This document shows positions 8,425-30,374 of a stretch of 32,405 nucleotides of DNA, piece after piece. This DNA is from an uncultured Bdellovibrionales bacterium (lineage in GTDB: Bacteria > Bdellovibrionota > Bdellovibrionia > Bdellovibrionales > UBA1609). Numbering within the stretch: position 1 is the first letter of the stretch; the number at the start of each line of letters is the position of its first letter. The notes beneath the pieces were generated by a model, which ran no database searches, was not told the DNA's origin, and saw only the letters and a list, made by a program, of their open reading frames with translations. Where the stretch lies: the NCBI GenBank assembly GCA_938001965.1, contig CALLBC010000210.1, forward strand, positions 1 through 32,405. Reading direction: 5' to 3'. The translations under genes and the position numbers were made by a program.

Positions 8425-8533
8425 TTCAGGATGACGTAATGCTTTATTCAGGATGACCGTAAAGCTTTATTTAGGGTGACGTAATGTTGTGTTCTAGTTA
8501 CGTAAAGTTTTATTCGAGCTGAATTAATGTTGC
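8425..8533. repeat. Degenerate 21-23-bp tandem array, TTCAGGATGACGTA type
   Basis: Five consecutive units start at 8425, 8447, 8470, 8492 and 8513. The first two are TTCAGGATGACGTAATGCTT.. and TTCAGGATGACCGTAAAGCT.., and later ones drift (TTTAGGGTGACGTAATGT.., TTCTAGTTACGTAAAG..). The period of 21-23 bp is about two helical turns. The array is preceded by GATCCTTCACTACG, giving the GATCCTTCAC...TCAGGATGAC motif that I recall as a common dispersed repeat in many bacterial genomes. The same unit recurs at 28172-28292. Confidence 0.75.
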
Positions 8534-13767: not shown

Positions 13768-13801
13768 AAAAAAAAGGAGCTTTAAAGCTCCTTTTTTTTT
13801 A
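13768..13801. terminator. Bidirectional terminator between ssb and gspN
   Basis: AAAAAAAAGGAGCTTTAAAGCTCC followed by nine T residues makes a symmetric stem with an A-tract on one side and a T-tract on the other. It serves ssb on the + strand. On the - strand it starts immediately at the gspN stop codon (13799-13801), ending the gsp operon. Confidence 0.93.
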
Positions 13802-14788
13802 GAAAGGTTGAGTGGACTTCATATTAGGCGGGGGGCCGAATCTTGAGCCACTCACTGCAAATAAAAACCTTGAACCCTTATTGGTGTTTTGTTTGTACTG
13901 ATCTAAAAAACTTAAGAAAAACAACTCTGAGGCTTTGGCTTTTGTGATGTTAAGTGAAATATCAAAGTTGTAGGCACCAAACACTGGAGCCACTTTTGCT
14001 CCAAAACGTTTAACTTTTATTGTCATCTTCCCGCGAACTTTTCCATTAATAGCATCACTAGTCTTGCCTAGTAAAACCTCTTCAATATTAAAACTAGATC
14101 CAGAAAGCTTTCCACGTAGCTTAACCTCTGAAAATTTAATTTCAGGTATATCAATGGGGCCCATGGCAGAGTTCACTGATCCTGCAGGCATAACAAAGTC
14201 TTTAATTTTCATTTCAGTGAGTCCATCGGGCTGAACCTTAAAGCTAGGGTCCACCTTGGCCTCTATTTCTCCAGAAGCTTTACCTTTAAGCTTTACTGGC
14301 AGAGGGTATAGCTTTTCTATTTCTGCTAAATCCACTTTTATAAAATCAGCTTCTATGTTTTGGTTGCGGAGTTTTTTATTGCCCTTTACGAGATCGCCTT
14401 CTTTATAAACTAAGTTTAAGTCGCCCTTTAATAGGCCTTCGGCTGATACAGCCACACCCATTTTAAAGGAAAGTAGGGCAGCAATGGACGGCGCAATGGA
14501 TAAAGAGCTCAGTTTTAAGTTTGATACTTGTGCAGTCTCTACCTGAACCTTTTCAAGATCTACAGAAGGGGTTGGTAAGAGCCCAATGCCCATATCATCA
14601 AATGATATAAACACCTGGTTGTTAGTCATTTTCGAAACTTGGGCAGTGGTGAAATCAGCGAGGTCAGAGTAAGGGAAAAGTAAAACTGTAAATAGTAGGG
14701 CTGAGGTAAAAACTAATAAAATTTTTAACTTGTGAAACTTAAAAATACTTTTAATAAACCCTAATACAGCTTGAATCACACCAGACAT
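13799..14788 (-). CDS. gspN: Type II secretion system protein GspN
   Basis: 329 aa. One transmembrane helix lies near the N-terminus (about 21-40; KILLVFTSALLFTVLLFPY), followed by a large periplasmic domain of beta-rich character (MGIGLLPTPSVDLEKVQVET..., EGLLKGDLNLVYKEGDL). This matches the longer GspN type seen in deltaproteobacterial clusters, distantly like AsmA-type proteins, rather than the classical Xanthomonas/Klebsiella form. GspN is an accessory factor of the inner-membrane side and is absent from many systems. It is the last gene of the gsp operon, 3 nt after gspM. The name rests on position, topology and remembered family features, so it is less certain than gspD-G. Confidence 0.75.
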   Translation of the reverse strand: MSGVIQAVLGFIKSIFKFHKLKILLVFTSALLFTVLLFPYSDLADFTTAQVSKMTNNQVFISFDDMGIGLLPTPSVDLEKVQVETAQVSNLKLSSLSIAPSIAALLSFKMGVAVSAEGLLKGDLNLVYKEGDLVKGNKKLRNQNIEADFIKVDLAEIEKLYPLPVKLKGKASGEIEAKVDPSFKVQPDGLTEMKIKDFVMPAGSVNSAMGPIDIPEIKFSEVKLRGKLSGSSFNIEEVLLGKTSDAINGKVRGKMTIKVKRFGAKVAPVFGAYNFDISLNITKAKASELFFLSFLDQYKQNTNKGSRFLFAVSGSRFGPPPNMKSTQPF

Positions 14789-14791
14789 AAA

Positions 14792-15478
14792 TTAACCTCT
14801 CTTCCCACGTTTTCTTTTTTTCTTTTTCTTTTTGCTGCTTTTGTCGATCTTTTCTTTTTTAACAGGATAGGCATAGCTTACAAGTCGATACTCTACGTTG
14901 AAGTATTGTGGTTTTTCGCCGTCTTCCTTAACTTCGGTTCCAATAAGTTTAATGTGGTTCCTGAATTGTTTAAAATGATAACCAATGTCCACAACTTGTT
15001 TTAAGTTAAGTTGTCTAAACTTTGCTTTGATAGCTGTTTGTAGAATTGGTTTTTTTGCTAAGGCCTTTCCTGTTTTTTCTAAGGGAAGTTCTTCAATAGT
15101 TACAATTTGATTTGGAAGTAAATCAAATCTACTCACAGAAGATCTTACTTGGCTAACAATTGAGCCAGAGTTGGAAGTGGTTGGCAAAGCGTTACGACTT
15201 TTAGGGACTTGGCCATATTTAAACATTTGGCGAATTAAACTTCTGTTATTGTTAAATTTGGTTATATTATCACTGGAAGAGCTTATGTATGAGTAAGGAA
15301 TGTAAACTAGAACTAAAACGACTAGTACTGCGCCAGCGATGGTTAATATTTTTTGTGTTTGTGCCGGTAGGGTTTCGTACTTTTCTTTAAGAGTGTTTAC
15401 ATGTGGGTTTTCAGCTAATTGTTCTTTTAGCTGAGCAAACTTCTCAATGGCTTGGTCTTTTATATCTTCTAAACCCAT
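14792..15478 (-). CDS. gspM: Type II secretion platform protein GspM (PilO-like)
   Basis: 228 aa from ATG 15478, chosen because it follows the gspL stop by one base and has AAAGGCGG 8 nt upstream; a GTG at 15487 would overlap gspL. It has a short cytoplasmic region (about 1-42), one membrane helix (ILTIAGAVLVVLVLVYIPYS) and a periplasmic domain with helix plus ferredoxin-like strands (IVSQVRSSVSRFDLLP, LKQVVDIGYHFKQF). The C-terminal tail is extremely basic (about 15 Lys/Arg at the end), which is unusual for a periplasmic tail. GspM dimerises and partners GspL in the inner-membrane platform. The assignment comes from topology and gene order L-M-N; sequence identity in this family is low. Confidence 0.75.
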   Translation of the reverse strand: MGLEDIKDQAIEKFAQLKEQLAENPHVNTLKEKYETLPAQTQKILTIAGAVLVVLVLVYIPYSYISSSSDNITKFNNNRSLIRQMFKYGQVPKSRNALPTTSNSGSIVSQVRSSVSRFDLLPNQIVTIEELPLEKTGKALAKKPILQTAIKAKFRQLNLKQVVDIGYHFKQFRNHIKLIGTEVKEDGEKPQYFNVEYRLVSYAYPVKKEKIDKSSKKKKKKRKRGKRG

Positions 15479-15479
15479 A

Positions 15480-17162
15480 TTAAGCACCGCCTTTAATGTT
15501 TAAACTAACTCTATAAGAAAATGGAATGCGGCCAGGGGTTTTCTTAAAAGTCGCTGTGGTCGACTTAACTTTGCCATCAGTTGAGATTCCTTTTAAGCTA
15601 GTTTCCACCTGTTTAAGTTGTGAGCGGGTGACCACTTCACCTTGAATTTGAAAGTAGCCATTAACAATATCAAGCGTTTTTACATTTAATTTAATGTTAT
15701 TTTTTCCAGGAATAGTAGTAGATATTTTCTTTAAAATATCTAGTGAAGATCCAATTCCTTGGATTTTATCAGCCATTTCATTGGCTTTAAGCTCACTCTT
15801 TTGATTTTTAATAAACTTTTTAATATTTCTTGAGTTAGCTTTAGACTTTGGTAGGCCAGCGATTTTTTGACCATGCTTCTTAAGTGCCTGTCTCGAAAGC
15901 TGCTGCATATTACTTGAGATACTGTCTCTAATAATTCCGTATGCTAACAAAATTACAAACATGGCAGCGGCATACTTTAATGTTGTTCCCCACTTATTCC
16001 AAAAATTTTGCCATTGCTCACTTTTTTGAGCAAACTCATCTTTTAAAACATTACTGGCAGGGTTGATTGGCTTTTTAAAAGCCTCCATGGCAAGGCCAAT
16101 TGCAGGTCCACCATTAACGCCAAACTTGGCGCCAGCCTCGAGCTCAACAAACGGGCTCATGCGAAACTCTTTAAGACGATTTACGGGGCGTTCTAATTTC
16201 TGAGTTAAGTAAGCTCCAATATTTTTTATTCGGCTTACGCCACCAACAATAAAAATATTATTTAGCTTTAACTTAAATTTTGACTCTGTTGCAATAACCA
16301 AAAGTTGTATTTGTTGGTGTAGTTCATCGATAGATGCTTTTAGTGTATCAGAGTAAATGGCTTGGTTTTTATTTCCATCTTCGTTGTTAAGGAGTATAAA
16401 TGACTTTGAGATAAGTTCTTTATTAGCTTCAGAAACTTGAATTTTATATTTTTCAGCTAAGGCATCACTTAAATGCTTGCCACCCCAATCGAGTGAGCGA
16501 GTATCAATCAGGCGGTTGCCATCTAAAAACAACACAATTGTTTGGCTGTGGCCTATATGTAATACCATATCAACATTTGTGGGTTCCCATACTTGCTCTT
16601 CTTCATCCTCTTCAAGTTCTTCATGAGGGTTATAGCTATCTTTAGCTTCTTGAGGAGCCTGTTGCCAGTTTTCAAATAAGTTGGCAAAGGCGAGGCCTTC
16701 AACACTTAATGAAGTTAAAGGAATACGACTGTCTTTTGCTAGCTGAAGACTTTTTTCTATTGCTTCTTTTGGCACGGCATAGGCTAGAACTTCAGTTGTG
16801 CTTTTGAAAAAACGAGTAATTTTTGCATCAAAAATGGCTAAGTCGCCAGTGAAGGGAACATCATCTTCTAGTTCAAAGGCAACGGACTTTAAAATTTTAT
16901 GTCTTTCTTTAAATGGAAAACTACAAATTCTAGAACTTACAAAGTTCTGGGGTAAGCCAAGTATAAATTTACTTTCACCATCATCATATTTTTCACCAAT
17001 TTGCCTTAGGATATCAATAATTTCAATTTCGTTGTCAGCACCTGGAGTAGGGTTTAGCAAAAATTCATGAAATTCTTCAAACCAATACTGTTTGTTTCGC
17101 TGATTAACAACGGCTACTTTTATACTAAAAGATCCAATGTCTATTCCAATCGCTCGACTCAA
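15480..17162 (-). CDS. gspL: Type II secretion platform protein GspL, PilM/actin-like domain fused to PilN-like part
   Basis: 560 aa. The cytoplasmic part (about 1-350) is PilM/actin-like: AIGIDIGSFSIKVAVV is the phosphate-1 strand, ELEDDVPF follows, DMVLHIGHSQTIVLFLDG is the second nucleotide loop, and NNIFIVGGVSRIKNI is the adenosine motif. A membrane helix (about 394-412, YAAAMFVILLAYGII) leads to a periplasmic ferredoxin-like domain (LKKISTTIPGKNNIKLNVKT...), like PilN. GspL docks the GspE ATPase to the platform. An acidic insert (ELEEDEEEQ, around 193) interrupts the actin fold. The start is TTG at 17162 with AAGG upstream; it sits 79 nt after gspK. The intact nucleotide loops suggest it may bind ATP, which classical GspL lost; that is inference. 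Confidence 0.85.
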   Translation of the reverse strand: MSRAIGIDIGSFSIKVAVVNQRNKQYWFEEFHEFLLNPTPGADNEIEIIDILRQIGEKYDDGESKFILGLPQNFVSSRICSFPFKERHKILKSVAFELEDDVPFTGDLAIFDAKITRFFKSTTEVLAYAVPKEAIEKSLQLAKDSRIPLTSLSVEGLAFANLFENWQQAPQEAKDSYNPHEELEEDEEEQVWEPTNVDMVLHIGHSQTIVLFLDGNRLIDTRSLDWGGKHLSDALAEKYKIQVSEANKELISKSFILLNNEDGNKNQAIYSDTLKASIDELHQQIQLLVIATESKFKLKLNNIFIVGGVSRIKNIGAYLTQKLERPVNRLKEFRMSPFVELEAGAKFGVNGGPAIGLAMEAFKKPINPASNVLKDEFAQKSEQWQNFWNKWGTTLKYAAAMFVILLAYGIIRDSISSNMQQLSRQALKKHGQKIAGLPKSKANSRNIKKFIKNQKSELKANEMADKIQGIGSSLDILKKISTTIPGKNNIKLNVKTLDIVNGYFQIQGEVVTRSQLKQVETSLKGISTDGKVKSTTATFKKTPGRIPFSYRVSLNIKGGA

Positions 17163-17241
17163 AATTTGACTACCTTGTTATTAGTGAATTAATAACCCTA
17201 ATAAATTAATATTACAGGTTTTTTTTACTTTCTATATACTA

Positions 17242-18516
17242 TCAATTCTCACGCCAGAAGACTATTGTAGGTCGACCTGATGGGGTTTTTTTCTTGGCCT
17301 TGGTCTGGGTTGTTTGGCTTTGTGTGCTGCCAGATCCAGTTCCGGTACCAGTTCCAGTCCCGCCTCCTGATTTTTCTTTGTCCTCTTCTTCTAGAAGGGT
17401 TACGTAACGGGCCTTTAGGCTTTCAAGATCAAAAGTAATGGCTGTTATTTCTTTTGTTACTCCGGCAAATGATCCTGTGCTTTTGATTACAAAGTTATGT
17501 TCAGATCCATAAAGTAAAGGAATACCATCTTCATTGAAGCTATCTGTGGAGAGGTTTTCTCCTTGTAAAAAGCCAACAAAGTCATCATTGTTTTTAAAAG
17601 GACCGCCCTTTTCTTTGTTTGCAATTCTCTCTAAAATTTTGTCAGCAATTTCATCAGTGATTTGGCTATCCAAAGACTTTAACACATCTTTTTCAGCGGA
17701 GTTTATATTAATTCCTTTTACTCCATAAATAGTAACACGAGTTTTTAGCATATTAAAAATTTCATCTGTCATTTCAGGAATCATATGAAGTTCTTCTATA
17801 GATTTAAAAGACTGATTAGGTGGCAAAAAATCAGCATTACTATTGCCAAAATTAGAAATTATATCCTGGTAGTTGCTTTTTTCGTCACCACCATTTTTAC
17901 TTTCTTTGTCCTCATCAACCCAGTCTTGTATGTTATTAACGAGTTTTTCAAATTCAAAAGAGCTGTACTTATCGTTAAAATCATCATTGTTTTCTAATTC
18001 AATTTCAAAAATTTTAAGAATTTGTTTACGAGTAGCCTCTCTAATTTTTTCAGAGCTAGACCCTAAATCATTAATATCAATTCGACCGGCTTCATCTTCA
18101 ATGGTAGTGACATATTGTCCTTCCATAATAGACTCTTCTTCAAGTTTGGCAATAAGCCCACGCTCCACCTTTGACATGTCTTCTGGTAAAAAAGCAGTGG
18201 GTGGCCAAGCAAAAGGAAACTGCCAAATAGGGTCGAGCATGGATTTTTGCTCTTCTAATTCTTTTGGTAAAACAGCTAAAGCTTTTTGGTAAATTAAAAC
18301 TCTAAGAAGTGAAAGCTCAGTTCCAGATTTAGCGGCATAGTAAGCGCGCAAGCGATTTACAGACTGGGAAGAGACACTATACTCAATTAATGTATCATAG
18401 GATACTGATGTGGCTAGGAAAGTCATCACCACCACAAAAAACAGAGCCATTAGCAAGGCAACCCCGTTTTGGCCTTTCTTAAAAATAATTTTATTAAAAG
18501 TAATAAAAGATTTCAT
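17242..18516 (-). CDS. gspK: Minor pseudopilin GspK
   Basis: 424 aa from ATG 18516, one base after the gspJ stop and with AGG 8 nt upstream; a longer in-frame start at 18597 lies inside gspJ and is rejected. The N-terminal prepilin-like segment KKGQNGVALLMALFFVVVMT has no Glu at position 5, as known for GspK. YYAAKSGTELSLLR continues the helix. The large globular part contains a helical insertion (EDEAGRIDINDLG, VNNIQDWVDEDKESKNG) with acidic residues typical of the GspK alpha domain, and NINSAEKDVLKSL. The C-terminus adds a Gly-Thr repeat (GGGTGTGTGTGSGS) and a basic tail, unusual for the family. GspK caps the pseudopilus with I and J. Confidence 0.9.
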   Translation of the reverse strand: MKSFITFNKIIFKKGQNGVALLMALFFVVVMTFLATSVSYDTLIEYSVSSQSVNRLRAYYAAKSGTELSLLRVLIYQKALAVLPKELEEQKSMLDPIWQFPFAWPPTAFLPEDMSKVERGLIAKLEEESIMEGQYVTTIEDEAGRIDINDLGSSSEKIREATRKQILKIFEIELENNDDFNDKYSSFEFEKLVNNIQDWVDEDKESKNGGDEKSNYQDIISNFGNSNADFLPPNQSFKSIEELHMIPEMTDEIFNMLKTRVTIYGVKGININSAEKDVLKSLDSQITDEIADKILERIANKEKGGPFKNNDDFVGFLQGENLSTDSFNEDGIPLLYGSEHNFVIKSTGSFAGVTKEITAITFDLESLKARYVTLLEEEDKEKSGGGTGTGTGTGSGSTQSQTTQTKAKKKTPSGRPTIVFWREN

Positions 18517-18517
18517 A

Positions 18518-19471
18518 CTAATTACCTGTAGGCGTGGTTGGGGTTGTTGGAGCTCCGGGAGTTTGTGTCCCAGCTTCTTTAGCTTTTGCAGCGGCAACTT
18601 CCTTGTCTTTTTTAATATTATTTGGAAAACGGATGGGTGCTACAACGGTCATAGCAAAGGTCTTTGCTTTTTTTCTTTTATCTACTTTTTGCTTAACACC
18701 TAAAGTGACCTCTACTGCAAGAGGGAAGGTGTCTTTAGTTATGTCGTCACCAGATTCATCAGTGACCCAGGCCTTTCTCCATTCACCCTCATCGAGACCC
18801 ACACCAATATAGCGTAAGTCAAACTTATCAACATTTTCTACTAAAACAGTTTTGGAGCCATCTTTTTTAACATCATCGTCAATATAGGCAATTGTTCGGC
18901 GCCATAAACATTTGCTCACACTCTTTCTAGTTTTTCTAGATTTACAACTATCAATATAGTAGCCAACCTCAGCGAGATTGCCCTCAGGAATATCAACTTG
19001 AGCCCGTATATTACTTGAGGAAGTGAAGTGTAGTGAGTCGCTCTCACCTAAGAAATGAGTTAAGCTAGTTTGCTTTTTTTCTTTAAACTTTGCTTTCATT
19101 TCTGTGCATGGGTTATTGGCTGCCCCTGTGGCCGCCGAACCTGTATTGGCGCCACCGCCTGTTGTTGAGCCGGGTGCTGTTGGAGTTTTTGGCTTGTTAT
19201 TCTTTTCGCAGTTAGCGATTCGTTCTTTTTGAGTTTCATTATAGAGCTCAGCATGGAAGTCATAATAGTTAAAGGCTCGCTCAATATCCCGTTTCATAAC
19301 TGATAGAGCATCACGCACAAGGGATTGTCGATCAATTTTATGTTGAATTTGTTTTTTTGAACGCATAGAACTTTGAATAGATTTGGAAGATGCCAAAGCT
19401 AAAATGGCCAATAGTGCTAAGGCAATAATTGTTTCTAATAATGTAAATCCATTATTGGTGTTTAATTTCAT
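18518..19471 (-). CDS. gspJ: Minor pseudopilin GspJ
   Basis: 317 aa, long for GspJ (often about 200). The prepilin peptidase site is NNG-FTLLETIIALALLAI, with Gly(-1), Phe1 and Glu5. The globular domain has AFNYYDFHAEL, YIDSCKSRK and VDKFDLRYIGVG..GEWRKAW, matching the GspJ pattern near the end. Extra length comes from low-complexity insertions: a Gly/Ala/Thr stretch (TAPGSTTGGGANTGSAATG, about 95-115) and a Pro/Thr tail (GAPTTPTTPTGN). The start codon shares one base with the gspI stop. With I and K it forms the pseudopilus tip. Five or so cysteines are present, so disulfides are plausible. Confidence 0.88.
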   Translation of the reverse strand: MKLNTNNGFTLLETIIALALLAILALASSKSIQSSMRSKKQIQHKIDRQSLVRDALSVMKRDIERAFNYYDFHAELYNETQKERIANCEKNNKPKTPTAPGSTTGGGANTGSAATGAANNPCTEMKAKFKEKKQTSLTHFLGESDSLHFTSSSNIRAQVDIPEGNLAEVGYYIDSCKSRKTRKSVSKCLWRRTIAYIDDDVKKDGSKTVLVENVDKFDLRYIGVGLDEGEWRKAWVTDESGDDITKDTFPLAVEVTLGVKQKVDKRKKAKTFAMTVVAPIRFPNNIKKDKEVAAAKAKEAGTQTPGAPTTPTTPTGN

Positions 19472-20013
19472 TAGTTACCACCAAGGCTTCCAGCCAATCC
19501 TGCTAGTGCTCCTAAGTCTAACTCTTTGTCGTAATCAACAAAATAAGTTGTTACTGCATATTTAACTTCTCTTTTTTTAAACTTAACATAGACTGCCACC
19601 TCAACCTCTTTTACCGATTTTGAGATATGCTCACCCATTTGTTTAATAATTGTAAGTAACATTTCATCAGCGCCGCCTTCTTGGCCAATAAGTACAGCAG
19701 ATAGGTCTGGCATTTCAAAGTCTTGGCTGCTCATGGTCCAACGATAATTTGGGAAGCCTTTAAATTTTCCACCATCTTCATCTTTTATTTCTTCGATGGG
19801 CTTATTTAAATACTGAATTTCAATTTCTGTGATTTTTTTTTGTAACAGCTCAGTTACGTTATGATTAATTTGTGCTTTGTTTAAACGAAAGTAGTTTCCG
19901 CTCCACGATGAGGTTAATGTAACAATACATCCGGTTAGGATGAGCATGGCTACCATAACTTCGATTAAGCTAAAGCCATCATTATTTTTAAAAGAATTCT
20001 TCCATAAATTCAT
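19471..20013 (-). CDS. gspI: Minor pseudopilin GspI
   Basis: 180 aa. The type IV prepilin-like leader NNDG-FSLIEVMVAMLILTG has Gly(-1) and Glu5. The following part (LNKAQINHNVTELLQKKITE, YRWTMSSQDFEMPDL, VEVAVYVKFKKREVKYAVTT) has the order expected for GspI, with the W near the middle and a strand pair near the end. GspI starts tip assembly with J and K. The ribosome binding site is poor. The gene is separated from gspH by 222 nt holding long hairpin element B, so translation or message level of I-J-K could differ from H. Confidence 0.87.
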   Translation of the reverse strand: MNLWKNSFKNNDGFSLIEVMVAMLILTGCIVTLTSSWSGNYFRLNKAQINHNVTELLQKKITEIEIQYLNKPIEEIKDEDGGKFKGFPNYRWTMSSQDFEMPDLSAVLIGQEGGADEMLLTIIKQMGEHISKSVKEVEVAVYVKFKKREVKYAVTTYFVDYDKELDLGALAGLAGSLGGN

Positions 20014-20087
20014 AAGCTAATTATGGCAAACAAAGGCAGTACTGTCATGATCATTTATTGTTAATTTTATGGCAGCTGAGAGTTAAG

Positions 20088-20231
20088 ACCCACTCCATTT
20101 CAATAATTCCCTAAATTTTAAGAAGCCCAAATTTTATAAAGCGCGCAGTTCTCGCCATAGGCGAGCTGTTCAGAGCACTTTGTGAAATTTGGGCTTCTTA
20201 AAATTTAGGGAAATATTGAAATGGAGTGGGT
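20088..20231. repeat. Long hairpin element B, gspH-gspI gap
   Basis: Arms 20088-20134 and 20185-20231 are reverse complements over 47 bp with a single mismatch (left arm begins ACCCACTCCATTTCAATAAT). The 50-bp centre continues the pairing imperfectly and ends in the apical hairpin CTCGCC-ATA-GGCGAG (20151-20165). The core reads GCGCGCAGTTCT, apical hairpin, AGCTGT, GAGCAC. The same core occurs in reverse orientation in element C, with different arms. The right arm ends 5 nt from the gspH stop, so the whole structure is in the gsp transcript. Confidence 0.93.
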
Positions 20232-20235
20232 ATCG

Positions 20236-20859
20236 CTAGTTTTCATCAAATTCGTCTAATGCTACGTATTCGGTATTAATAAATGAGCGGCCGGTGAGGG
20301 GGTGTATACTCACTGTCCACCTTAGCTTGTCATCATATTTTAAATGTATAGCGGCTTCATCAACAAAGCCTTCTGGACGAAAATGGATATAAACTATACC
20401 ACTTGAAATGGGTTCTCCAAGTTGTTTAACCTCAACATCTTCAAAGAATATACTGCCAGGGAGTTTCTTGGCCTTTTTGCCAAAGCGAGCATCAGGTGTA
20501 AAATCGCTGGTTTTTTCTTCTTTTCCCTTTTTGTCTTTTTTAAATGGTGAGGTGAGTGAACCCTTAGTGGCAATTCGACTTCCAGAAGCACTCTCAACCC
20601 AGTACTTGTGACTTTTGCGACTGGCCTCGCCCCCTTCCCCCATATCAATCACTAATCGAAAAGTGGAGTTAGTCAGTTTTGCACGACTATGCAGGTCTCT
20701 AGTTAAAACGCCAAACTGTCTCACGGCTTCTTTGATTTCAGAGTTGGTGTTTCTTACTTTTGAGAAAAATAATGTTGCACTTCCGCCAATAATTAACACA
20801 ACAATCATGATCTCCATAAGTGTCATACCAGAATTATTTTTTAATAAGTTTTTAGTCAT
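20236..20859 (-). CDS. gspH: Minor pseudopilin GspH
   Basis: 207 aa. The prepilin signal is NNSG-MTLMEIMIVVLIIGG, with Gly(-1), Met1 and Glu5. The next helix (VRQFGVLTRDLHSRAKLTNS) and the strand TFRLVIDMG fit GspH, which joins the major fibre to the I-J-K tip. A charged Lys/Gly segment (KKDKKGKEEK, about 108-120) and the SGIVYIHFRPEGFVDEAAIH strand pair follow. GGAG lies 10 nt before the ATG. The gene follows a terminator-like hairpin after gspG and is itself followed by hairpin element B. Confidence 0.87.
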   Translation of the reverse strand: MTKNLLKNNSGMTLMEIMIVVLIIGGSATLFFSKVRNTNSEIKEAVRQFGVLTRDLHSRAKLTNSTFRLVIDMGEGGEASRKSHKYWVESASGSRIATKGSLTSPFKKDKKGKEEKTSDFTPDARFGKKAKKLPGSIFFEDVEVKQLGEPISSGIVYIHFRPEGFVDEAAIHLKYDDKLRWTVSIHPLTGRSFINTEYVALDEFDEN

Positions 20860-20880
20860 TATTATTTATCTCCAAAGTAA

Positions 20881-20914
20881 AAAAAAAGCGAAGACCCTTG
20901 CCCTCGCTTTTTTT
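20881..20914 (-). terminator. Intra-operon terminator/attenuator after gspG
   Basis: AGCGA pairs with TCGCT around a 12-base loop, with an A/T tract of about seven on each side, 18 nt beyond the gspG stop in the - direction. It probably stops a fraction of transcripts, so major pseudopilin message exceeds that of H-N. Confidence 0.75.
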
Positions 20915-20932
20915 GTTATAAATTTTTTTCAT

Positions 20933-21379
20933 TTACTCGTCATCGCCATCTTCTTCAGGGAAAACAATATCTTTATCAAAGCCTTCTCCACCTTCACTTT
21001 TATCAGCACCCAGTGATGTTATTGTGTATGATCCACCACTAGCTTCATATTCGTAGTCTGATCCCCAAGGATCTTTTTTAAGTTTGTAGTAGGCAACCGG
21101 TCCCCAGTTGGAGCAGTTAGAAGGGGCTGTTTCAAGAGCTCCAATCTCAGTAGGGTAGCTGTTACAATCAGCATAATAAGTTTCTAATGCTTTGCCAATT
21201 TCAGCCATACTAATTTTAGCTTGGCTAATTTTTGATTTTTTAAAGTTATCCATAACTTTAGTTCCTAGAGTTGCCATTAAGCCACCTAAGATAACCATAA
21301 CGATCATGATCTCAATAAGTGTCATACCCTTGTTATTATTTAGCATTGGAATTTTGATTTTTAGTATTCTTTTCATCAT
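20933..21379 (-). CDS. gspG: Major pseudopilin GspG
   Basis: 148 aa, usual size. The leader and cleavage site are NNNKG-MTLIEIMIVMVILGG, with Gly(-1) and Glu5, followed by the long helix MATLGTKVMDNFKKSKISQA. The globular domain shows the GspG signature: ALETYYADCNSYPTEIGAL and DPWGSDYEYE, then ITSLGADKSEGGEGFDKDI, the calcium-binding loop region. GspG polymerises into the pseudopilus that pushes substrates through GspD. GGAGG lies 9 nt upstream of the first ATG. Two Cys (YADCN, PSNCSNW) could make a disulfide. A terminator directly after the gene fits its role as the most abundant component. Confidence 0.96.
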   Translation of the reverse strand: MMKRILKIKIPMLNNNKGMTLIEIMIVMVILGGLMATLGTKVMDNFKKSKISQAKISMAEIGKALETYYADCNSYPTEIGALETAPSNCSNWGPVAYYKLKKDPWGSDYEYEASGGSYTITSLGADKSEGGEGFDKDIVFPEEDGDDE

Positions 21380-21426
21380 TAATATTTGCCTCCATAAAAA
21401 TAATTAATTTTAAAAAATAAAATAAG

Positions 21427-22647
21427 TTAAGTACCCATATTCATCATATCGAATAATGGTACCATGATAGCCACAACTATGGATCCAATAACGCCACCCA
21501 TTACGACTATCATCACGGGTTCCATTAAAGCTGTTAACCCATCCACTTCAGTATTGACCTGGAAGTCATAGGCTTTACTGACCTGTTCAAGCATGCTTTC
21601 TAGTTCGCCTGTTTTTTCACCAATACTGATCATATGTATAACCATTGGTGGAAATTGACCTGACCTCTTCAAAGGTCCAGCAATAGATTCACCCTCACTG
21701 ATATTTTCTCTGGCATCATCAATAGCAACGGCTAAAACATCGTTGTTTACAACATTTCTTACAATGTCCATGGCAGCAAGCATTGGCACACCACCATTTA
21801 ACAAAGTAGATAGTGTTTGAGCAAAACGTGACACAGCAACGAGTCGAAGTAGTTTACCCATCACAGGTATTTTTAAAACAATTTTATCCCAAGTTTTTCG
21901 GCCATTAGGGGAGTTTTTCCAGTTTCTAAATATAAAAAAGAGAACAAAGGTGGCAATAATAATGACTGGCCAGTACTCAATGACAATGTCACTCAAGTCT
22001 ATAATTAAAAGAGTGAACCACGGCAAAATCAAATCTTCACTGGCTTCAAAGATTTCAACCATCTTTGGGACAACATAGGTGAATACAACACCTAGAATTG
22101 CAATGGTTACAACAATCATAATCAAAGGGTAAATCATGGCTGATTTAACTTTACTTTGAAGTTCGTTGGCTGACTCTGTGAATTCGGCCAATCGTATGAG
22201 GATTGTATCTAGCGTACCTGACATTTCTCCAGCTTCAGTCATTGATAAAAATATTATGTCAAAGGTTTTAGGGTACTTAGCCATTGATTTATAAAGAGGC
22301 TGACCTTCATTAACCATGTTTTTAATTTCAGCCATGGTTTCAGCTAAGGACTCATTTTCTACCTGTTCACTCACGGCGGCCAATGAATCTACTAGAGGAA
22401 TGTTGGCTTTTAAAAGTGTAGCTAACTGCCTTGTCATCATGGCAAGATCTTTCACATTTACTTTTCTAGAGGCATTTACTTTTTTATTTTTTTTGCCCTT
22501 GTTGCCTTTTGAACGATCTTTTAGGGCCTGTACATACACGCCCTGTTTTTTTAAACGGGTTTTTGCCGCGCGTACATTTTCGGCGTCAATTGTTCCTTTA
22601 ACATTAGAGCCTTTTTTATTAAGCCCTTTGTATTCAAACATTGGCAT
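21427..22647 (-). CDS. gspF: Type II secretion inner-membrane platform protein GspF
   Basis: 406 aa, exact family length. It starts MPMFEYKGLNKKGSNVKGTI, the typical PilC/GspF opening, so ATG 22647 is preferred over ATG 22641. Two T2SSF domains are visible: about 70-195 (MTRQLATLLKANIPLVDSL, FLSMTEAGEMSGTLD) and about 270-395 (FAQTLSTLLNGGVPMLAAM, MISIGEKTGELESMLEQVS). Membrane helices follow each domain (MIYPLIMIVVTIAILGVVFT; VIIIATFVLFFIF; MIVVMGGVIGSIVVAIMVPL). It converts GspE ATPase motion into pseudopilus growth. It starts 2 nt after the gspE stop, so the two are tightly coupled. Confidence 0.97.
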   Translation of the reverse strand: MPMFEYKGLNKKGSNVKGTIDAENVRAAKTRLKKQGVYVQALKDRSKGNKGKKNKKVNASRKVNVKDLAMMTRQLATLLKANIPLVDSLAAVSEQVENESLAETMAEIKNMVNEGQPLYKSMAKYPKTFDIIFLSMTEAGEMSGTLDTILIRLAEFTESANELQSKVKSAMIYPLIMIVVTIAILGVVFTYVVPKMVEIFEASEDLILPWFTLLIIDLSDIVIEYWPVIIIATFVLFFIFRNWKNSPNGRKTWDKIVLKIPVMGKLLRLVAVSRFAQTLSTLLNGGVPMLAAMDIVRNVVNNDVLAVAIDDARENISEGESIAGPLKRSGQFPPMVIHMISIGEKTGELESMLEQVSKAYDFQVNTEVDGLTALMEPVMIVVMGGVIGSIVVAIMVPLFDMMNMGT

Positions 22648-22649
22648 AA

Positions 22650-24341
22650 TTACTGATCCACTTGTGTATTAGATAAAACTTCTTCAATTGATGTTAAGCC
22701 ACTTAAAACTTTTTGTATTCCATGATCTCTGAATGGAACCATTCCTTCAAGCAGTGCTTGTTTTTTTATTTGCGAACCATCAGCTCGTTGCATAATTAAA
22801 GTTCTGATCGGCTCAGTAACAAGTAGTAGCTCTTGAATGATGGTTCGACCAGAGTAGCCCTTGTGATTGCATTCATTACAACCCACAGGCTTATGAATAT
22901 TGGTGCCCTTGATTTGATCAGCTGTTAGCTCAAGGCTGTTAAGCTCAATTTCTGTTGGAACATGTGGTTCTTTACAGTGTGGGCATAATAAACGTATAAG
23001 TCTTTGTGCCACAATACCTAAAAGTGAGGTGGCAATTAAAAATGGCTCACACCCCATATCAATAAGTCTTGGGAATACACCAGAGGAGTCATTGGTATGC
23101 AGTGTAGACAACACTAAGTGACCAGTTAGAGAGGCGTTAATGGCAATCTCTGCAGTTTCTAAATCACGAATCTCCCCAAGCATAATAACATTGGGATCTT
23201 GACGTAGTATTGCTTTTAAACCTTTGGCAAATGTTAAGCCAATTTTTGCATTGGCTTGGATTTGTCCAACGCCGTGAATTCTTTGTTCCACCGGGTCTTC
23301 AACAGTAATAATATTTTTATCAATAGTATTAATTTTAGAAATTGATGAATACAAAGTAGTGGACTTACCACTACCTGTTGGGCCGGTAACAAGAAAGATT
23401 CCATATGTTTTTGTTAATATATCATCAATTTGAGCTAAGCTTTTTGCAGAGAAACCCAATTGATTTAAATCTAAGATTACATTTGATCTATCCTGTAAAC
23501 GCATAACAATACGCTCACCGTGAGAAGTGGGAACAGTACTTAAACGAACATCAATATCTTTGCCAGCAAGTTTTAAAGGAATACGACCATCTTGAGGTAA
23601 ACGTTTTTCAGCAATATTTAAATTGGCCATAACTTTAATACGAGAGGTGATTGCGTTTTGAAGCTTTTTAGGTGGTTTGAAAACATCAAATAAAATACCA
23701 TCAGTTCTAAAGCGCACAACCATGTCTTTTTCATAGGGCTCAATATGTATATCAGAGGCCTTTTCTTTTACGGCTCTAAACAATAGACGGTTTACTAGCT
23801 TGATTACTGGTGCATCATCATCACCAGCTTCAAGTAAATCAATAACTGGATCATCAAGGTCCATGTCATCTTCTTCGATATCATCTAAGCCTTCAAGGGC
23901 AGCAGTGCTTTTTTCGTAAACCTTATTTATGGCTTCATGCATACGAATACTTGTTGTGATTAAACTCTTAACAGGCTTGCCAAATAAAACTCTTAAGTCA
24001 TCTAAGGCTTTGTGATTTAGCGGGTTACTGGTTAACACAAGCATATGGTCTTTTTCTTCTTTAAAGGGTAAAACTTCATGGTTTTTTGAGTAGTTAATTG
24101 GAATGTTGCGAACTAAGTCAGCTAATATATCATTTGATGGAATATCTTTAATAAAGTCCACATTCATTAACTCACAAAGATCATTTAAGGCGTCATCAAT
24201 GCTGCTAAAACTTTTTTCTGTTAAGAGCTCTCTAAATTTTTCACCCTCTTCAGTTTTTAAGTCTAAGATAGAACTGAGCTGTTCTTTGTTGAGCTTAGTT
24301 CCTTTGACGATGAGAGTTTCAAATGTAGTCTTACTTGCCAT
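22650..24341 (-). CDS. gspE: Type II secretion assembly ATPase GspE
   Basis: 563 aa. An N-terminal MshEN/GspE-N region (about 1-160; LPFKEEKDHMLVLTSNPLN is typical) precedes the catalytic domain. That domain has FRTDGILFDVF, GPTGSGKSTT (Walker A, from about 320), an Asp box near ITVEDPVEQRI, GEIRDLETAEIA (Walker B region) and LVLSTLHTND (His box). A tetracysteine zinc motif sits at CPHC (about 451) and CNEC (about 487), usual for GspE/PilB. ATP hydrolysis powers pseudopilus assembly from the cytoplasm. The ATG at 24341 has only a weak ribosome binding site. It leads the E-to-N unit, and its promoter must lie between it and the gspD terminator, where hairpin element C also sits. Confidence 0.97.
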   Translation of the reverse strand: MASKTTFETLIVKGTKLNKEQLSSILDLKTEEGEKFRELLTEKSFSSIDDALNDLCELMNVDFIKDIPSNDILADLVRNIPINYSKNHEVLPFKEEKDHMLVLTSNPLNHKALDDLRVLFGKPVKSLITTSIRMHEAINKVYEKSTAALEGLDDIEEDDMDLDDPVIDLLEAGDDDAPVIKLVNRLLFRAVKEKASDIHIEPYEKDMVVRFRTDGILFDVFKPPKKLQNAITSRIKVMANLNIAEKRLPQDGRIPLKLAGKDIDVRLSTVPTSHGERIVMRLQDRSNVILDLNQLGFSAKSLAQIDDILTKTYGIFLVTGPTGSGKSTTLYSSISKINTIDKNIITVEDPVEQRIHGVGQIQANAKIGLTFAKGLKAILRQDPNVIMLGEIRDLETAEIAINASLTGHLVLSTLHTNDSSGVFPRLIDMGCEPFLIATSLLGIVAQRLIRLLCPHCKEPHVPTEIELNSLELTADQIKGTNIHKPVGCNECNHKGYSGRTIIQELLLVTEPIRTLIMQRADGSQIKKQALLEGMVPFRDHGIQKVLSGLTSIEEVLSNTQVDQ

Positions 24342-24704: not shown

Positions 24705-26936
24705 TTAAAATGATTCAACGGCTGGCTCTTCAACCTCTGGATTAAAGTCCTGCTCCAGTGCGTCTTCAATATCTAGATCAACTTCTGGTTTAGAGCTTCG
24801 TCTTGAAGCTTTTCTCGGTAGGCTATCAATGTTGTAACCATGGGGATCTTTACCGTTCATGTAGCTTTGAATAAAATCAATTCTTTCATTAATTTTGTTA
24901 TTAACAATATCAGCGCCGTCATCAGCATTCCTTAATATTTTAGGGGTGATAAACATAACAAGGTTTAGTTTAGATTTTGATGACTTAGTGCTTTTAAATA
25001 GCCATCCTAATATTGGAATGTCGCCAAGGATGGGAACTTTTGTCATAGACTCCTCTTCCGTATCCTGCATAAGACCACCAATAACGGCAGTGTCACCGCT
25101 ATCCACAGATATTCTTGTTTTAACATTTCGATCATTAGTTGTGGCCGTTGCACCTTGCTGTGAGTTTAGTACTTGTGTGCTTGCAAGTTGTTTAATTTTT
25201 TGTTCGATCTCCATTTGTACTTGATCTGTGTCTGGGCTGATTTGTGGTTTAATAGTTAAGTCAATAGTGGCCTCTTTAAAAATAGGAGCAGATGTTGTTC
25301 CTGTTGTGCTAACAGTGTTTGATGAACCAACGGGGATTGTTTGTCCCACAGCTATATTTGCTTCTTCATTGTCCATAACAGTGATTTGTGGGCTGGATAA
25401 AATATTTCCATTATTATTAGTTTTAATAAAGTTAACTAAACCAGTGAGGCTTTTAACTTCAATATTGTCGCCTCCAGCCGGGTTAGGGATTGAAACACTT
25501 TTACCAGCTCCAAAGCCTAATATTGCTCCAGCACCACCAAGAGGGCTTAAAAGACTGGTGATGTTTTCCAGTCCGCCAAAGCCAATTCTGCCAAGTCCGC
25601 CAGTTCCTTCTTTAAATTTATAGTAACTAATACCCCAGTTATTTTGTTTCTCAGCTCTCATTTCCATAATGATTGCTTTTACAAAAACTTGATCTCTTGG
25701 GATGTCAATTTTAGCTAGTAAGCCTTTCATTACTTCATAGTCTTGGCGACTGGCTGTAACGATTAAGCTATTAGTTGTTTCATCAGCTGTTACTTTTACT
25801 TCGCCGCCAAAAAGGGAGGTGCCGCCAGCTGATTTTGCGGCAGATGAAGTGCTGCCTGATTTTGGCCTTGGGGTTACGCCACTGCCACCAGTTTTTGCGT
25901 CATTTGCTTTTTTAGAGTCAGTGGCCACGCCATTAATTACGTTGGCAATCTTTTCAGCTACGCCGTGGCGGACATAGTAAACATAAACACCGCCAGCATC
26001 TTCTGGGTTTAAGGGAAAATCTAACTTTTTAACTAGAGCTTTAATACGCTTAATACCAGCTTTGTTTCCCATAACCACAATTGAGTTAGTTCTTTCATCA
26101 CTAACAACTAAAGAGTATGACTCAGCACCAGTTTTGCTAGAACCAGATTTTTTTCTTCTAAATCTTGGGACGTTACGTGAGTTTTTACTTTCTCCTTTGT
26201 TAATGATCTGATCAACAAGGGTTTGAATTTCCTTGGCTTTGGCATTGTAAATTCTAATCACAGAGAGCTGTTCTTCGTAACCAGGAACATCTAGTTGGGC
26301 TAAAATTCGGGAGATTCTTTCAATGTTTGAACCAAAGTCAGTAATAATTAAAGAGTTAGTTGGGCCATAGGCCTCTAAGATACCTTGCCTCGATTTTAAA
26401 TACTTTATCTTGCTTGATAAATCTTCAGCTGAAATATATTTTAATTTCACAATACGTGTGATCACTTGGTCAGTATTAGGAAAGTAATCGGTGTAAGTTT
26501 CAATGCTGTCATTTTGGGCGGTGGTCACCTGTCTGATTTTTAAAAAATTACCTGAGGGTACAACAGTTAGATTATTAATTGCTAAAGCCGATAGGAAGGC
26601 TTTATAGGCTTCAGCCACAGTAATTTGCGACGGAGCAATAATTGTGATTTTTCCTCGGCTGGCAGCAGGGTCAACAATAAAGTTTTTACCAGTTAATTTA
26701 CTAATGGCTTTAACAACCTCAGAAATATCGGCATTGGGGTAGTCAAAACTATCAATTAGGTCCGGGAAGTTTTCATTGGTGATATCTTCAGGTTGTGCTT
26801 TTGCAAACTTTTTTCTTGTGGCCTCGTCAATTGGGCTGTCGTTTTGCTCTTGCTGTGCAAAGCTTGAAGAGGCAAAGCAAATAAGCATTACTGCAATAAG
26901 TGACTTTGTTAACCCACAAATTAATTTTTTAGACAT
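24705..26936 (-). CDS. gspD: Type II secretion secretin GspD
   Basis: 743 aa. It has a signal peptide (KSLIAVMLICFASSSFA-Q). The N0 domain is visible at about 58-125 (LIDSFDYPNADISEVVKAIS, GKNFIVDPAASRGKITI). N1-N3 domains follow, with SLVVSDERTNSIVVMGN and ADETTNSLIVTASRQDYEVM marking N2 and N3. The secretin domain (about 420-670) contains GNILSSPQITVMDNEEANI, VGQTIPVGSS, GDTAVIGGLMQD and VPILGDIPILGWLFKSTKS, the strongest family signature. A Ser/Gly-rich linker lies before N3. A charged C-terminal tail (about 680-743) may bind a pilotin; no pilotin gene is adjacent. It forms the outer-membrane channel. AAGGAG sits 7 nt before the ATG; the gene follows gspC by 21 nt. Confidence 0.98.
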   Translation of the reverse strand: MSKKLICGLTKSLIAVMLICFASSSFAQQEQNDSPIDEATRKKFAKAQPEDITNENFPDLIDSFDYPNADISEVVKAISKLTGKNFIVDPAASRGKITIIAPSQITVAEAYKAFLSALAINNLTVVPSGNFLKIRQVTTAQNDSIETYTDYFPNTDQVITRIVKLKYISAEDLSSKIKYLKSRQGILEAYGPTNSLIITDFGSNIERISRILAQLDVPGYEEQLSVIRIYNAKAKEIQTLVDQIINKGESKNSRNVPRFRRKKSGSSKTGAESYSLVVSDERTNSIVVMGNKAGIKRIKALVKKLDFPLNPEDAGGVYVYYVRHGVAEKIANVINGVATDSKKANDAKTGGSGVTPRPKSGSTSSAAKSAGGTSLFGGEVKVTADETTNSLIVTASRQDYEVMKGLLAKIDIPRDQVFVKAIIMEMRAEKQNNWGISYYKFKEGTGGLGRIGFGGLENITSLLSPLGGAGAILGFGAGKSVSIPNPAGGDNIEVKSLTGLVNFIKTNNNGNILSSPQITVMDNEEANIAVGQTIPVGSSNTVSTTGTTSAPIFKEATIDLTIKPQISPDTDQVQMEIEQKIKQLASTQVLNSQQGATATTNDRNVKTRISVDSGDTAVIGGLMQDTEEESMTKVPILGDIPILGWLFKSTKSSKSKLNLVMFITPKILRNADDGADIVNNKINERIDFIQSYMNGKDPHGYNIDSLPRKASRRSSKPEVDLDIEDALEQDFNPEVEEPAVESF

Positions 26937-26957: not shown

Positions 26958-27920
26958 TTATTCAATTACATAATTAAAGCTATTATCTTTTCCGCCACTA
27001 TTGATGTCGATATTCACACTACTAGCATCAGATTTTAATACATTATAAAGTTCCATGGCTTTAGCGGCACTATTTACAGGCTCGCCGTTAACTCCTTTAA
27101 TGATGTCGCCATTTTTAAAGCCAAGCTTTTCGAAGATACTTCCGGGCTTTATACTTAAAAATTTAAAGCCTTGAATAGAACCATCAGGTCCTTTGTTAGG
27201 AGCCATACTAGCTTGTCGCAAAATTTCGCCCATACGTTTAGTTTGATTAAGAAAGTCAGACCTTTTGATTACACGTGAGTTGCCACGAACTTGAACCAGA
27301 TCATTTCCTTGAGCCGCCTTTGGTGGAGCTGAGGATGTCTTTGAACCAAAGTTAATTTTTAACTCCTCAGGTATTTCAATGTATTCTTTTTTATTATTGT
27401 TGAGGTTTCGAATAATAACTTTACGTCTTTGCACTTCAATAACCTTTGCCACACGCTCCATATCTTCCTCTGGTTTATAAGAGCTGGTTTTATTTTGGCT
27501 AGTTAATTGAACGGTTGCTATTGATTTAGATGGATCACGGTGAACAATAGTGCCAAGTAGTTTAATTGGGAGTCTTGATAAGGTTGCTGGCCCATCATCA
27601 GGATTATCGCTTTCTTCGCCAGCCTCTTTTTTGGCAAGAGAGGCTAATGTATCAGGTATTTTACCTTCAGAGTTAAAAATATTTCTTGTGGCGATAGGGG
27701 AGTAAACTCCTTTTGAGCCAGGTTTTTTAAACATTCTTTTTTGTGGCTTTTTAGGGGGTGCTTCTTTAGGTAACATGTAGGGCCGAATGTACAGTGTCCC
27801 AAGGTCAGCAATAATAAAGCCCAGTAATAGCACTAAAACATATGGTAAAATAAATTCAAAGGCCGGTTTGCCATCACCTTTATTGCCACGTTTGCTGAAT
27901 AATTTTTGTAGTAAACTCAT
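26958..27920 (-). CDS. gspC: Type II secretion protein GspC with PDZ domain
   Basis: 320 aa. One membrane helix near the N-terminus (about 24-45; FILPYVLVLLLGFIIADLG) is followed by a periplasmic homology region (about 70-180). There, IATRNIFNSEGKIP and LPIKLLGTIVHRDPSKSIAT are typical of GspC and contact GspD N0. A C-terminal PDZ domain (about 230-320) includes GFKFLSIKPGSIFEKLGFKN and GDIIKGVNGEPVNSA. GspC links the platform to the secretin and helps select substrates. It is the first gene of the gspC-D unit. AGGGG lies right against the ATG at 27920, an unusually short spacing. The next upstream gene is on the other side of a 393-nt gap. Confidence 0.95.
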   Translation of the reverse strand: MSLLQKLFSKRGNKGDGKPAFEFILPYVLVLLLGFIIADLGTLYIRPYMLPKEAPPKKPQKRMFKKPGSKGVYSPIATRNIFNSEGKIPDTLASLAKKEAGEESDNPDDGPATLSRLPIKLLGTIVHRDPSKSIATVQLTSQNKTSSYKPEEDMERVAKVIEVQRRKVIIRNLNNNKKEYIEIPEELKINFGSKTSSAPPKAAQGNDLVQVRGNSRVIKRSDFLNQTKRMGEILRQASMAPNKGPDGSIQGFKFLSIKPGSIFEKLGFKNGDIIKGVNGEPVNSAAKAMELYNVLKSDASSVNIDINSGGKDNSFNYVIE

Positions 27921-28313: not shown

Positions 28314-29015
28314 TTAATTTGCTAAATCAAGCTCAGCATTTTGGTTTTTAACATAGGGCCAAAACCAACTTAGCATTGGATCCATGTCAATAGACTCCAA
28401 GATTTGAACATCATAAAGTGAATGATCAAATGTTTTGGCTTTTGCCCAGCCACTTCCAGGGCCAATATCAATAATTTGTTTTACATGGTGATCTTCAATA
28501 AGCTCTTTCACTAATAAGCCTAGCTCATTTTTAGCTTCACCAGCTTCTATAAAGTCCTCGTCACCCATTTTAAATAACTGATTTAAACTCATTGTAACAC
28601 CAGATAATAATGGCTCATTAACAATATTAAGTGATGGCTGTATTTCTGTGCCATCTTTTTGGAATAAAGATTGAAAAGTCTTTCTGCCAATTACTATATT
28701 TAGTGGAGACACACCATTAATGTTGCCCAGTAAATATTTGGGCTGGCCAAATTTACTAACATAACGATCGTAAAGACCTAACTGTATAATACAATTAAGT
28801 ACAGACTTGAGTTTAATGTTTTTACTGTAGGTGGCATTGTCTGATGCCAGAGTTGTGAAGAAGTCTTCTTTAAAGCAGGCATTTTCGCCAAGCTTATTTG
28901 AAGCTTCGCTAGCTTCTTTAATTTTATTAATAACCTCAGGTATTCTAATTACATTATGTCTGATATCTGAAAAGTCTAACGAATGTAGACCAGAAAAAAT
29001 AATTGATTTATTCAT
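28314..29015 (-). CDS. Degenerate malonyltransferase (FabD)-like protein
   Basis: 233 aa, shorter than FabD (about 310). Three segments are placed as in acyltransferases of the FabD type: an N-terminal FSGLHSLDFSDIRHNVIRIP reminiscent of FPGQGSQ..GM; a central KYLLGNINGVSPLNIVIGRK where FabD has the GHSLGE nucleophile elbow; and a C-terminal IIDIGPGSGWAKAKTF like FIEIGPGxxL. The catalytic Ser position appears to be Ile (G-N-I-N-G) and the usual active-site His could not be located. If the family call is right, this is a non-catalytic or altered member. The neighbours give no fatty-acid context. The family resemblance is my inference from pattern, not a search; a wholly different fold remains possible. 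Confidence 0.4.
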   Translation of the reverse strand: MNKSIIFSGLHSLDFSDIRHNVIRIPEVINKIKEASEASNKLGENACFKEDFFTTLASDNATYSKNIKLKSVLNCIIQLGLYDRYVSKFGQPKYLLGNINGVSPLNIVIGRKTFQSLFQKDGTEIQPSLNIVNEPLLSGVTMSLNQLFKMGDEDFIEAGEAKNELGLLVKELIEDHHVKQIIDIGPGSGWAKAKTFDHSLYDVQILESIDMDPMLSWFWPYVKNQNAELDLAN

Positions 29016-29258: not shown

Positions 29259-30374
29259 TTAAAATAAGAATGGAGTGTCAAAGTCTGGCGGGTCTTTATA
29301 AGGTGAGGGCTTTAAAAAACTGGGGACTTGATCCTCAGGTGACAGCATACAATAAAGACCGTATTGAACTTTTGAGCTCATAAAGTCTTTAGGCGCCAAT
29401 GAATTTAAATGCCCTTCAAAGTGATTAAAGATGAGTAAATCTTTTTTTTGCACATTTTCGTAACAATGGAGTAGCAAACTATAAAATATATCAGGGTTGT
29501 CAGCATTAAAATGGGTTAGGTAGGTGATGGGGAGTACTTCTCCCTCTTTTGGTAGCGGGTGAGCCATTCCAAGCCATGATAATACCTTGAGTGATTGTTC
29601 TGCTGAACGAGCGAGGTTGTTACTATATTTTTTAATACGGATTTCCAGTGCCGGATTGGACCATGGCGCCACACAGCCCACAATTCTATTTTGATAATCA
29701 AGGGCTAAAACAAAATCTTCAAAGCCTAAATAAGGCCAGTTATAAATTCGCTCTTGAACTTCTGTGCTAGAGTCAATAAAGCGAATGGGCATTTTTGAGT
29801 TATTAGCGTACAGGTATGAGTGTAGTTTGTCCCGGTCTGAATACTCTGCATTTCTAAAAGTGAGAGAGGGTAGCTTTTTATCGGCTAAAGGTAAGAGGCC
29901 GTGAATACAAGTGAGTTGATATCTGCGATATAAAAAATATCGAGGCATAGGTATTGTAGTTTTTCTGGGTCTAATAAAAGCGTTGTAAGCTTTAGTTTGT
30001 TTTTTTGATACAAATGTAAATATAAAATTACAATTTCGTTTCTTTTTTTCCTCGTTAAGTGTGGGTAAAAAGAATTTTGTCCAGTTAACAATGGCCTTTC
30101 TGTTTTTTGAAACGAGTAAATCCGTGGCTAGGCCAATAACTTGTTGTTCACCTTCAAGCCAAGCCATTTTAAACAAGAGTGTGGCCATGGCTTGAATTTT
30201 GTTATCTTCGTCAATCAACAAGTAAGTGACATGGTCATCTGACTGCATGTCGTAGTGCTTAAAAAAATCATTTTTACGAATAAGCTCTAAATCAGTTTGA
30301 GCTGAATAAATATTACTTCTGTAAAACTCAATCAAGCGTTCGTTATAAGATTTATCGGCCTTAAATAATTTCAT
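29259..30374 (-). CDS. GNAT-like acetyltransferase family protein, unknown substrate
   Basis: 371 aa. The N-terminal half (about 1-150) looks like a GNAT N-acyltransferase: LIEFYRSNIYSAQTDLELIR, then VTYLLIDEDNKIQAMATLLF and VIGLATDLLVSKNRKAIVNW in the place of strands beta4-beta5 and the acetyl-CoA loop. A second half (about 165-371) repeats the theme (LTFRNAEYSDRDKLHSYLYA, FVLALDYQNRIVGCVAPWS), suggesting a tandem-GNAT layout. The loop is not the canonical R/Q-x-x-G-x-G/A, so activity is uncertain. It overlaps the upstream adenosyltransferase gene by ATGA and is probably co-translated with it. A link to cobalamin metabolism is not otherwise supported. Confidence 0.5.
   Translation of the reverse strand: MKLFKADKSYNERLIEFYRSNIYSAQTDLELIRKNDFFKHYDMQSDDHVTYLLIDEDNKIQAMATLLFKMAWLEGEQQVIGLATDLLVSKNRKAIVNWTKFFLPTLNEEKKKRNCNFIFTFVSKKQTKAYNAFIRPRKTTIPMPRYFLYRRYQLTCIHGLLPLADKKLPSLTFRNAEYSDRDKLHSYLYANNSKMPIRFIDSSTEVQERIYNWPYLGFEDFVLALDYQNRIVGCVAPWSNPALEIRIKKYSNNLARSAEQSLKVLSWLGMAHPLPKEGEVLPITYLTHFNADNPDIFYSLLLHCYENVQKKDLLIFNHFEGHLNSLAPKDFMSSKVQYGLYCMLSPEDQVPSFLKPSPYKDPPDFDTPFLF

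Follow-up and report, generated by a model that had tools for sequence, protein, structure and literature searches.

A putative FabD-type acyltransferase fold without its catalytic residues, conserved beside the type II secretion genes of Bdellovibrionia

Acyltransferase (AT) enzymes have their acyl pocket between an alpha/beta core and a ferredoxin-like subdomain, and in FabD (malonyl-CoA:ACP transacylase, MCAT; PF00698, TIGR00128) an arginine that follows the nucleophile elbow holds malonate. The fold also occurs outside catalysis. Trans-AT polyketide synthases keep degenerate acyltransferase pieces without catalysis, the AT-docking remnants, for which our literature search, confined to open-licence PMC, found no paper. 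Human MCAT, an enzyme of this fold, is described in an excerpt of a Nature 2022 report as an assembly factor of the small subunit of the mitoribosome (PMC9892005), and secretion in Bdellovibrio relatives is called largely unexplored in an excerpt of another report (PMC12622784).

We here describe a protein, T, encoded next to type II secretion genes in a genome of an uncultured Bdellovibrionales bacterium (GCA_938001965.1); the whole stretch of DNA analysed, 32,405 nucleotides, is referred to as the window, and its features are collected in Table 1. Judging from sequence comparison and structural models, we put a probability of about 0.8 on T being a catalytically dead descendant of the FabD-type enzymes (PF00698 clan) that now serves as a partner-binding scaffold or adaptor. 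Like FabD, T appears to have the alpha/beta core, the order of elements and the GPG loop; unlike FabD, it has no GxSxG serine, catalytic histidine, ferredoxin-like insert or Pfam match, and its RIPEV and DPxLxWFW segments are new. With the AT-docking remnants it would share a degenerate AT kept without catalysis, but those are parts of megasynthases whereas T is a stand-alone protein. It would likewise resemble human MCAT as an AT-fold protein that acts by binding, but, as far as the excerpt goes, MCAT is a full-length enzyme that binds rRNA, and nothing ties T to ribosomes (PMC9892005). The same literature search of open-licence PMC found no relevant paper on the T family. New here are an intermediate enzyme family, a stepwise reduction, a mini form, the synteny with a secretion locus and a C-terminal motif.

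Table 1 Features of the window discussed in the text (window coordinates)
Feature	Position	Strand	Basis or remark
T, putative FabD-fold pseudo-acyltransferase, 233 aa	28314..29015	-	ORF, orthologues, AF2 model and fold search
RIPEV, T residues 24-28, hallmark helix start of the family	28932..28946	-	R24, P26 and V28 invariant in 30/30
GNING, T residues 97-101, at the GxSxG nucleophile elbow site	28713..28727	-	Sequence and column tally
IDIGPG, T residues 182-187, FabD-like GPG loop	28455..28472	-	G185 and P186 at >=90% of 30
DPMLSWFW, T residues 212-219, C-terminal hallmark	28359..28382	-	D212, L215 and W217 invariant in 30/30
Leu-Ala-Asn C-terminus of T, A-[QN] end	28317..28325	-	End-motif counts
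c5, 371 aa, no Pfam/NCBIfam family	29259..30374	-	Conserved neighbour; GNAT-like by eye only
gspC, type II secretion	26958..27920	-	T2SSC 9.4e-06, 26.0 bits vs cut-off 27; PDZ match; cluster c1
gspD secretin	24705..26936	-	TIGR02517 over cut-off at G000:C210:24906-26747
gspE, F, G, H, I, J, K, L, M, N	13799..24341	-	ORFs; names from reading translations, no search

T is a real gene, kept across the class Bdellovibrionia. By the ORF list and its translation the frame opens with ATG and yields 233 aa, and the start methionine is one of eight columns that are invariant in the alignment of 30 T orthologues (M1, R24, P26, V28, R84, D212, L215 and W217), a conservation that rules out a start-codon artefact. 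Within the class, 111 of 143 genomes match the T profile at E<=0.001, some of them via longer homologues only, and 38 of the 47 genomes of the host's family have a match at E<=1. Phylum-wide, 117 of 368 genomes are matched, six of them outside Bdellovibrionia; the five of these six that were listed all fall in frames of 310-357 aa, that is, in the full-length form, and the T family itself appears restricted to Bdellovibrionia. Relatives that carry names are metagenome-assembled genomes of Bdellovibrionales and Bdellovibrionaceae. Single-sequence scans of the genome and viral collections returned no relative, and a single-protein scan of T matched no Pfam or NCBIfam family. The genome's own FabD is normal, with 317 aa and a GHSVG elbow; hence, T is an additional protein and not the host's FabD.

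The original prediction, made from the letters of the window, read T as a possible malonyltransferase pseudoenzyme about 80 residues short, with GNING in place of GxSxG and an IDIGPG segment near the C-terminus. These landmarks hold up: the two motifs lie at residues 97-101 and 182-187, and T is 84 residues shorter than the genome's own FabD. Among 52 distinct relatives of T's own form, on which all residue tallies are based, the nucleophile column contains serine in 14, isoleucine in 11, valine in 7, alanine in 5, threonine in 4, lysine in 3, leucine and tyrosine in 2 each, phenylalanine and aspartate in 1 each and a gap in 2, and 12 of the 14 serine-bearing proteins have a complete GxSxG. 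The elbow serine predicted to be missing is therefore missing from T and from most relatives, but not universally. From these sequences its loss appears to be lineage-specific within the family, and since 12 of the 52 keep GxSxG, a reactive serine could persist in some members. No column of the same alignment contains histidine in more than 30% of the proteins, and the ferredoxin-like small subdomain is missing from these relatives and from T, in the latter as judged from its length and from a low-confidence linker at residues 126-139. Conserved in place of the catalytic parts are RIPEV (R and P in 52/52), GPG and DPxLxWFW, and often also an A-[QN] C-terminus. An NGDS segment is also frequent (N in 32, G in 33, D in 36 and S in 39 of the 52 proteins), which, together with the invariance of R24, R84 and D212 in 30/30, would suit an enzyme whose active site has been rebuilt from conserved arginines, an aspartate and this segment; however, the NGDS segment is missing from the mini form described below and no histidine column is conserved, and we regard a rebuilt enzyme as very unlikely.

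The profile search proposed with the original prediction fails when T and FabD are compared directly (hhalign probability 1.8%, score 22.5, with 100 shuffles reaching 26.6). PF00698 is matched by none of 30 T members at E<=1, and phmmer and profile searches against PDB sequences gave no significant match for T; in the match to the human FAS MAT domain, not significant at E 0.46, its GHSLGE aligns with the GNINGD consensus of T. The search succeeds in two steps, through a family of proteins, about 302-333 aa long, that occurs in Bdellovibrio and its relatives and whose elbow reads GCSLGD, with a later PxHS, in 14 of 15 members, and SCSLGD in the fifteenth. T matches this GCSLGD family with an hhalign probability of 99.74% (E 4.9e-27, score 186; 50 column shuffles <=23.5), a score not independent of the choice of the full-length set, which was made via a T-profile match, whereas the match of the family to FabD is independent of that choice (99.37%, E 4e-21, score 153; 50 shuffles <=23.2). 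All seven GCSLGD proteins scanned match PF00698 at E<=3e-4, five of them over the cut-off. As the direct comparison is not significant, the homology of T to the AT superfamily rests on this intermediate family and on predicted structure; through the former, the sequence link is significant.

By profile, the GCSLGD family is the closest homologue of T, with the PEV segment and the core in common. It differs in that it retains the serine (GCSLGD), the histidine (PxHS) and the insert and, in several loci, lies next to Coq4-like or ferritin-like genes instead of gspC. In the alignment it is without the arginine that follows the elbow in FabD, which makes malonyl transfer an unlikely activity for it. 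Its loci are L144-L155 and L160-L162 (for example, L150:3735-4682, minus strand), where the neighbours include ferritin/DUF455-like proteins and a Coq4-like protein (PF05019 in both of the two scanned), and this neighbourhood possibly represents an unnamed lipid or quinone pathway. A second FabD-like family, with PGRG...GNSMG, occurs in ten loci (L064-L073) and matches FabD at an hhalign probability of 97%; the one member scanned matched no Pfam family. It was rejected as a closer parent of T, because its match to T (11.7%, score 29.8 vs shuffles <=23.0) is far weaker than that of the GCSLGD family. Other homologues depart from T in length. At L143:3475-5345 a T-like protein of 235 aa stands in tandem with a 303-aa relative of FabD-like length without GxSxG, and L156-L159 encode homologues, 302-366 aa in length, in which a long linker rich in Ala, Pro and Ser takes the place expected for the ferredoxin-like insert; most of them have a GSSNG or GNSNG elbow.

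The AF2 model of T, built from a 30-row alignment, has a pLDDT of 87.0 and a pTM of 0.85, with the linker at 126-139 disordered. Against PDB, Foldseek places FabD and AT chains at a probability of 1.00, at modest E values (best 2.3e-3), and the best 50 rows are AT-type in 49 cases. VIA-align has nothing but AT-containing chains in its best 50 rows (Z 10.6-12.9, 169-199 of 233 residues), and E. coli FabD (1mla) aligns with Z 12.1 and rmsd 3.7 over 180 residues. The predicted fold of T is that of FabD, the AT alpha/beta hydrolase-like fold. The acyltransferase scaffold of the original prediction is borne out at the level of the model; a fold unrelated to FabD was looked for and not found.

A shorter, mini form of 157-190 aa is found in Bdellovibrio and relatives and matches T with an hhalign probability of 99.41% (E 1.3e-21); in the mini set, 5 of 35 loci yielded no mini in the script filter. 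It has neither the elbow segment nor the NGDS segment and retains RIPEV, GPG and DPxLxWFW. Foldseek with the mini model (pLDDT 84) gave nothing significant. In VIA-align, rows 1-35 for this model, at Z 6.5-10.4, are AT, FAS, PKS or mitoribosome-assembly chains, the last-named including 8csp and 7pua, after which Z drops to 5.0; hence, the mini form is predicted still to have the AT fold.

An AT core of this kind could be a ligand sensor that binds, but does not turn over, acyl-CoA, acyl-ACP or some other small molecule and reports on lipid or metabolic state. Retention of the AT core and the GPG loop would fit such a role, as would the fact that in 16 of 59 loci T lies next to the conserved c5. 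We nevertheless find a sensor improbable: the ferredoxin-like subdomain, one wall of the acyl pocket, is gone from T; the elbow, part of the same pocket, is variable in T and gone in the mini form; and c5 stands beside gspC in 6 of 24 checked genomes that have no T. The target of such a report could be, for example, the secretion locus or c5.

Ratios of dN/dS are 0.02-0.13 in eight of ten pairs, comprising seven mini pairs (0.02-0.13) and one T pair (0.09); the other two pairs, both T and including the window's own closest pair, are saturated (dS). The mini form is under purifying selection. A decaying FabD duplicate, or pseudogene, would account for the loss of the catalytic parts and for T being shorter than FabD, but the frame is open in 30/30 aligned loci, dN/dS is far below 1, the hallmark motifs are invariant and T is present in families across the class; conservation refutes this reading, to which we attach next to no probability. 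The conservation and the low dN/dS, the window's own pair being saturated, instead support the earlier suggestion of a scaffold turned to another use.

In a tree made with a quick method from 103 rows and 177 columns, with many long branches, the full-length family is on one side (95) and T and the mini form are on the other; 30 minis group in a single clade (99) that lies within T, and the serine label requires eight changes. When the full-length family serves as the root, several members with GxSxG diverge near the base of T. An order of losses with the histidine and the insert first and the serine later is plausible on this long-branched tree, in which the direction of change depends on outgroup rooting. 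An ancestral full-length enzyme would first have lost the ferredoxin-like subdomain and the catalytic histidine. The nucleophile serine would have followed in T's lineage, and the entire elbow region in Bdellovibrio. The resulting series runs from full-length proteins with serine and histidine, through GxSxG without histidine and forms without serine, to forms without an elbow. As living relatives span the range from an active-looking acyltransferase to a core of 157-190 aa, it becomes possible to ask which surface survives lost catalysis. In T there would remain the alpha/beta core, a conserved surface (RIPEV, R84, GPG and DPxLxWFW) and a C-terminal tail, and we infer that T binds a partner through this surface and tail, with no chemistry.

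The tail comprises the 10-15 residues that trail the WFW motif in T proteins. It ends in A[QN] in 27 of the 52 proteins of this form; in the synteny set, 24 of 61 T-cluster proteins have this end, as does 1 of the 318 proteins from nine neighbouring families, and [AS][QN] ends 35 of 2233 background frames. C-terminal ends vary by clade, with LI or LHS in minis. That the end is conserved while the linker before it varies points to a peptide for docking or recognition. The first strand of T starts at residue 2 and leaves no room for a signal peptide, so T is probably cytoplasmic. The PDZ domain of GspC, which should lie in the periplasm, was set aside as a reader of the tail, given that T is without an export signal.

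T is found between gspC-gspD-gspE and c5-c4, in which c5 is an unnamed protein of 370-390 aa and c4 is the cobalamin adenosyltransferase; c5 occurs in 32 loci and adjoins both the adenosyltransferase and the secretion operon. The synteny set holds 63 loci, of which L097, L112, L113 and L179 are without T after overlap filtering and three of the remaining 59 are repeats. In these 59 loci gspC is present in 53 and adjacent to T in 39; among the 56 distinct ones it is in the locus in 50 and adjacent in 37 (35 divergent, 2 on the same strand), the adjacency count being a lower bound because of spurious small frames between T and gspC. Only the window and L182 have both genes on the same strand among the 37, and T seems to be inverted in the window's lineage. 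Presence patterns say nothing on a functional link between T and the secretion system, since the gspD secretin is near-universal (over the cut-off in 130 of the 143 genomes of the class).

The adjacency may also be inherited gene order, with T active in some process that has nothing to do with secretion, for example lipid or envelope homeostasis or the assembly of another complex. Conservation extends to the entire block c4-c5-T-gspC-gspD-gspE, and T persists beside c5 without adjacent gspC in at least three loci (L177, L178 and L180). In none of the 24 genomes without a T match was T found upstream of gspC; in the six mentioned above, c5 lies directly upstream of gspC on the same strand, and T looks inserted between the two, or lost there. 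Against mere inheritance stands the divergent arrangement of T and gspC around a short shared upstream region in 35 of the 56 distinct loci, in several families. We give inherited order slightly better than even odds; it bears on the link to secretion alone, and T could be a dead acyltransferase either way.

That T serves the secretion system, as the synteny suggests, is tentative and somewhat below even odds. In the most speculative step of our proposal, the partner of the dead acyltransferase would be in, or would regulate, the type II secretion system encoded alongside, and the C-terminal tail would act as a docking peptide. The full version, in which the family is an unnamed cytoplasmic accessory or regulator of type II secretion in predatory bacteria, read via its C-terminal dipeptide and derived from an enzyme dismantled stepwise at one locus, seems doubtful to us on present sequence data. 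The analysis also puts a name to a conserved protein whose gene adjoins the type II secretion operon in relatives of Bdellovibrio.

A scan for sigma-70 promoters and terminators between T and gspC was at chance. The gap between the two genes contains 2.6 copies of a short repeat, AGGATGACGTACTCAGTTC (window 28171-28224), and two looser copies are in another intergenic stretch (window 8425-8485). The repeat has five matches in the window vs 0.07 expected, and genome-wide there is a single exact occurrence of its 14-base core. The operon also encodes a GspL-like protein (window 15480-17162), whose position suggests that it may correspond to bd1585 of B. bacteriovorus HD100, called pilM in an excerpt of an earlier report (PMC3818213).
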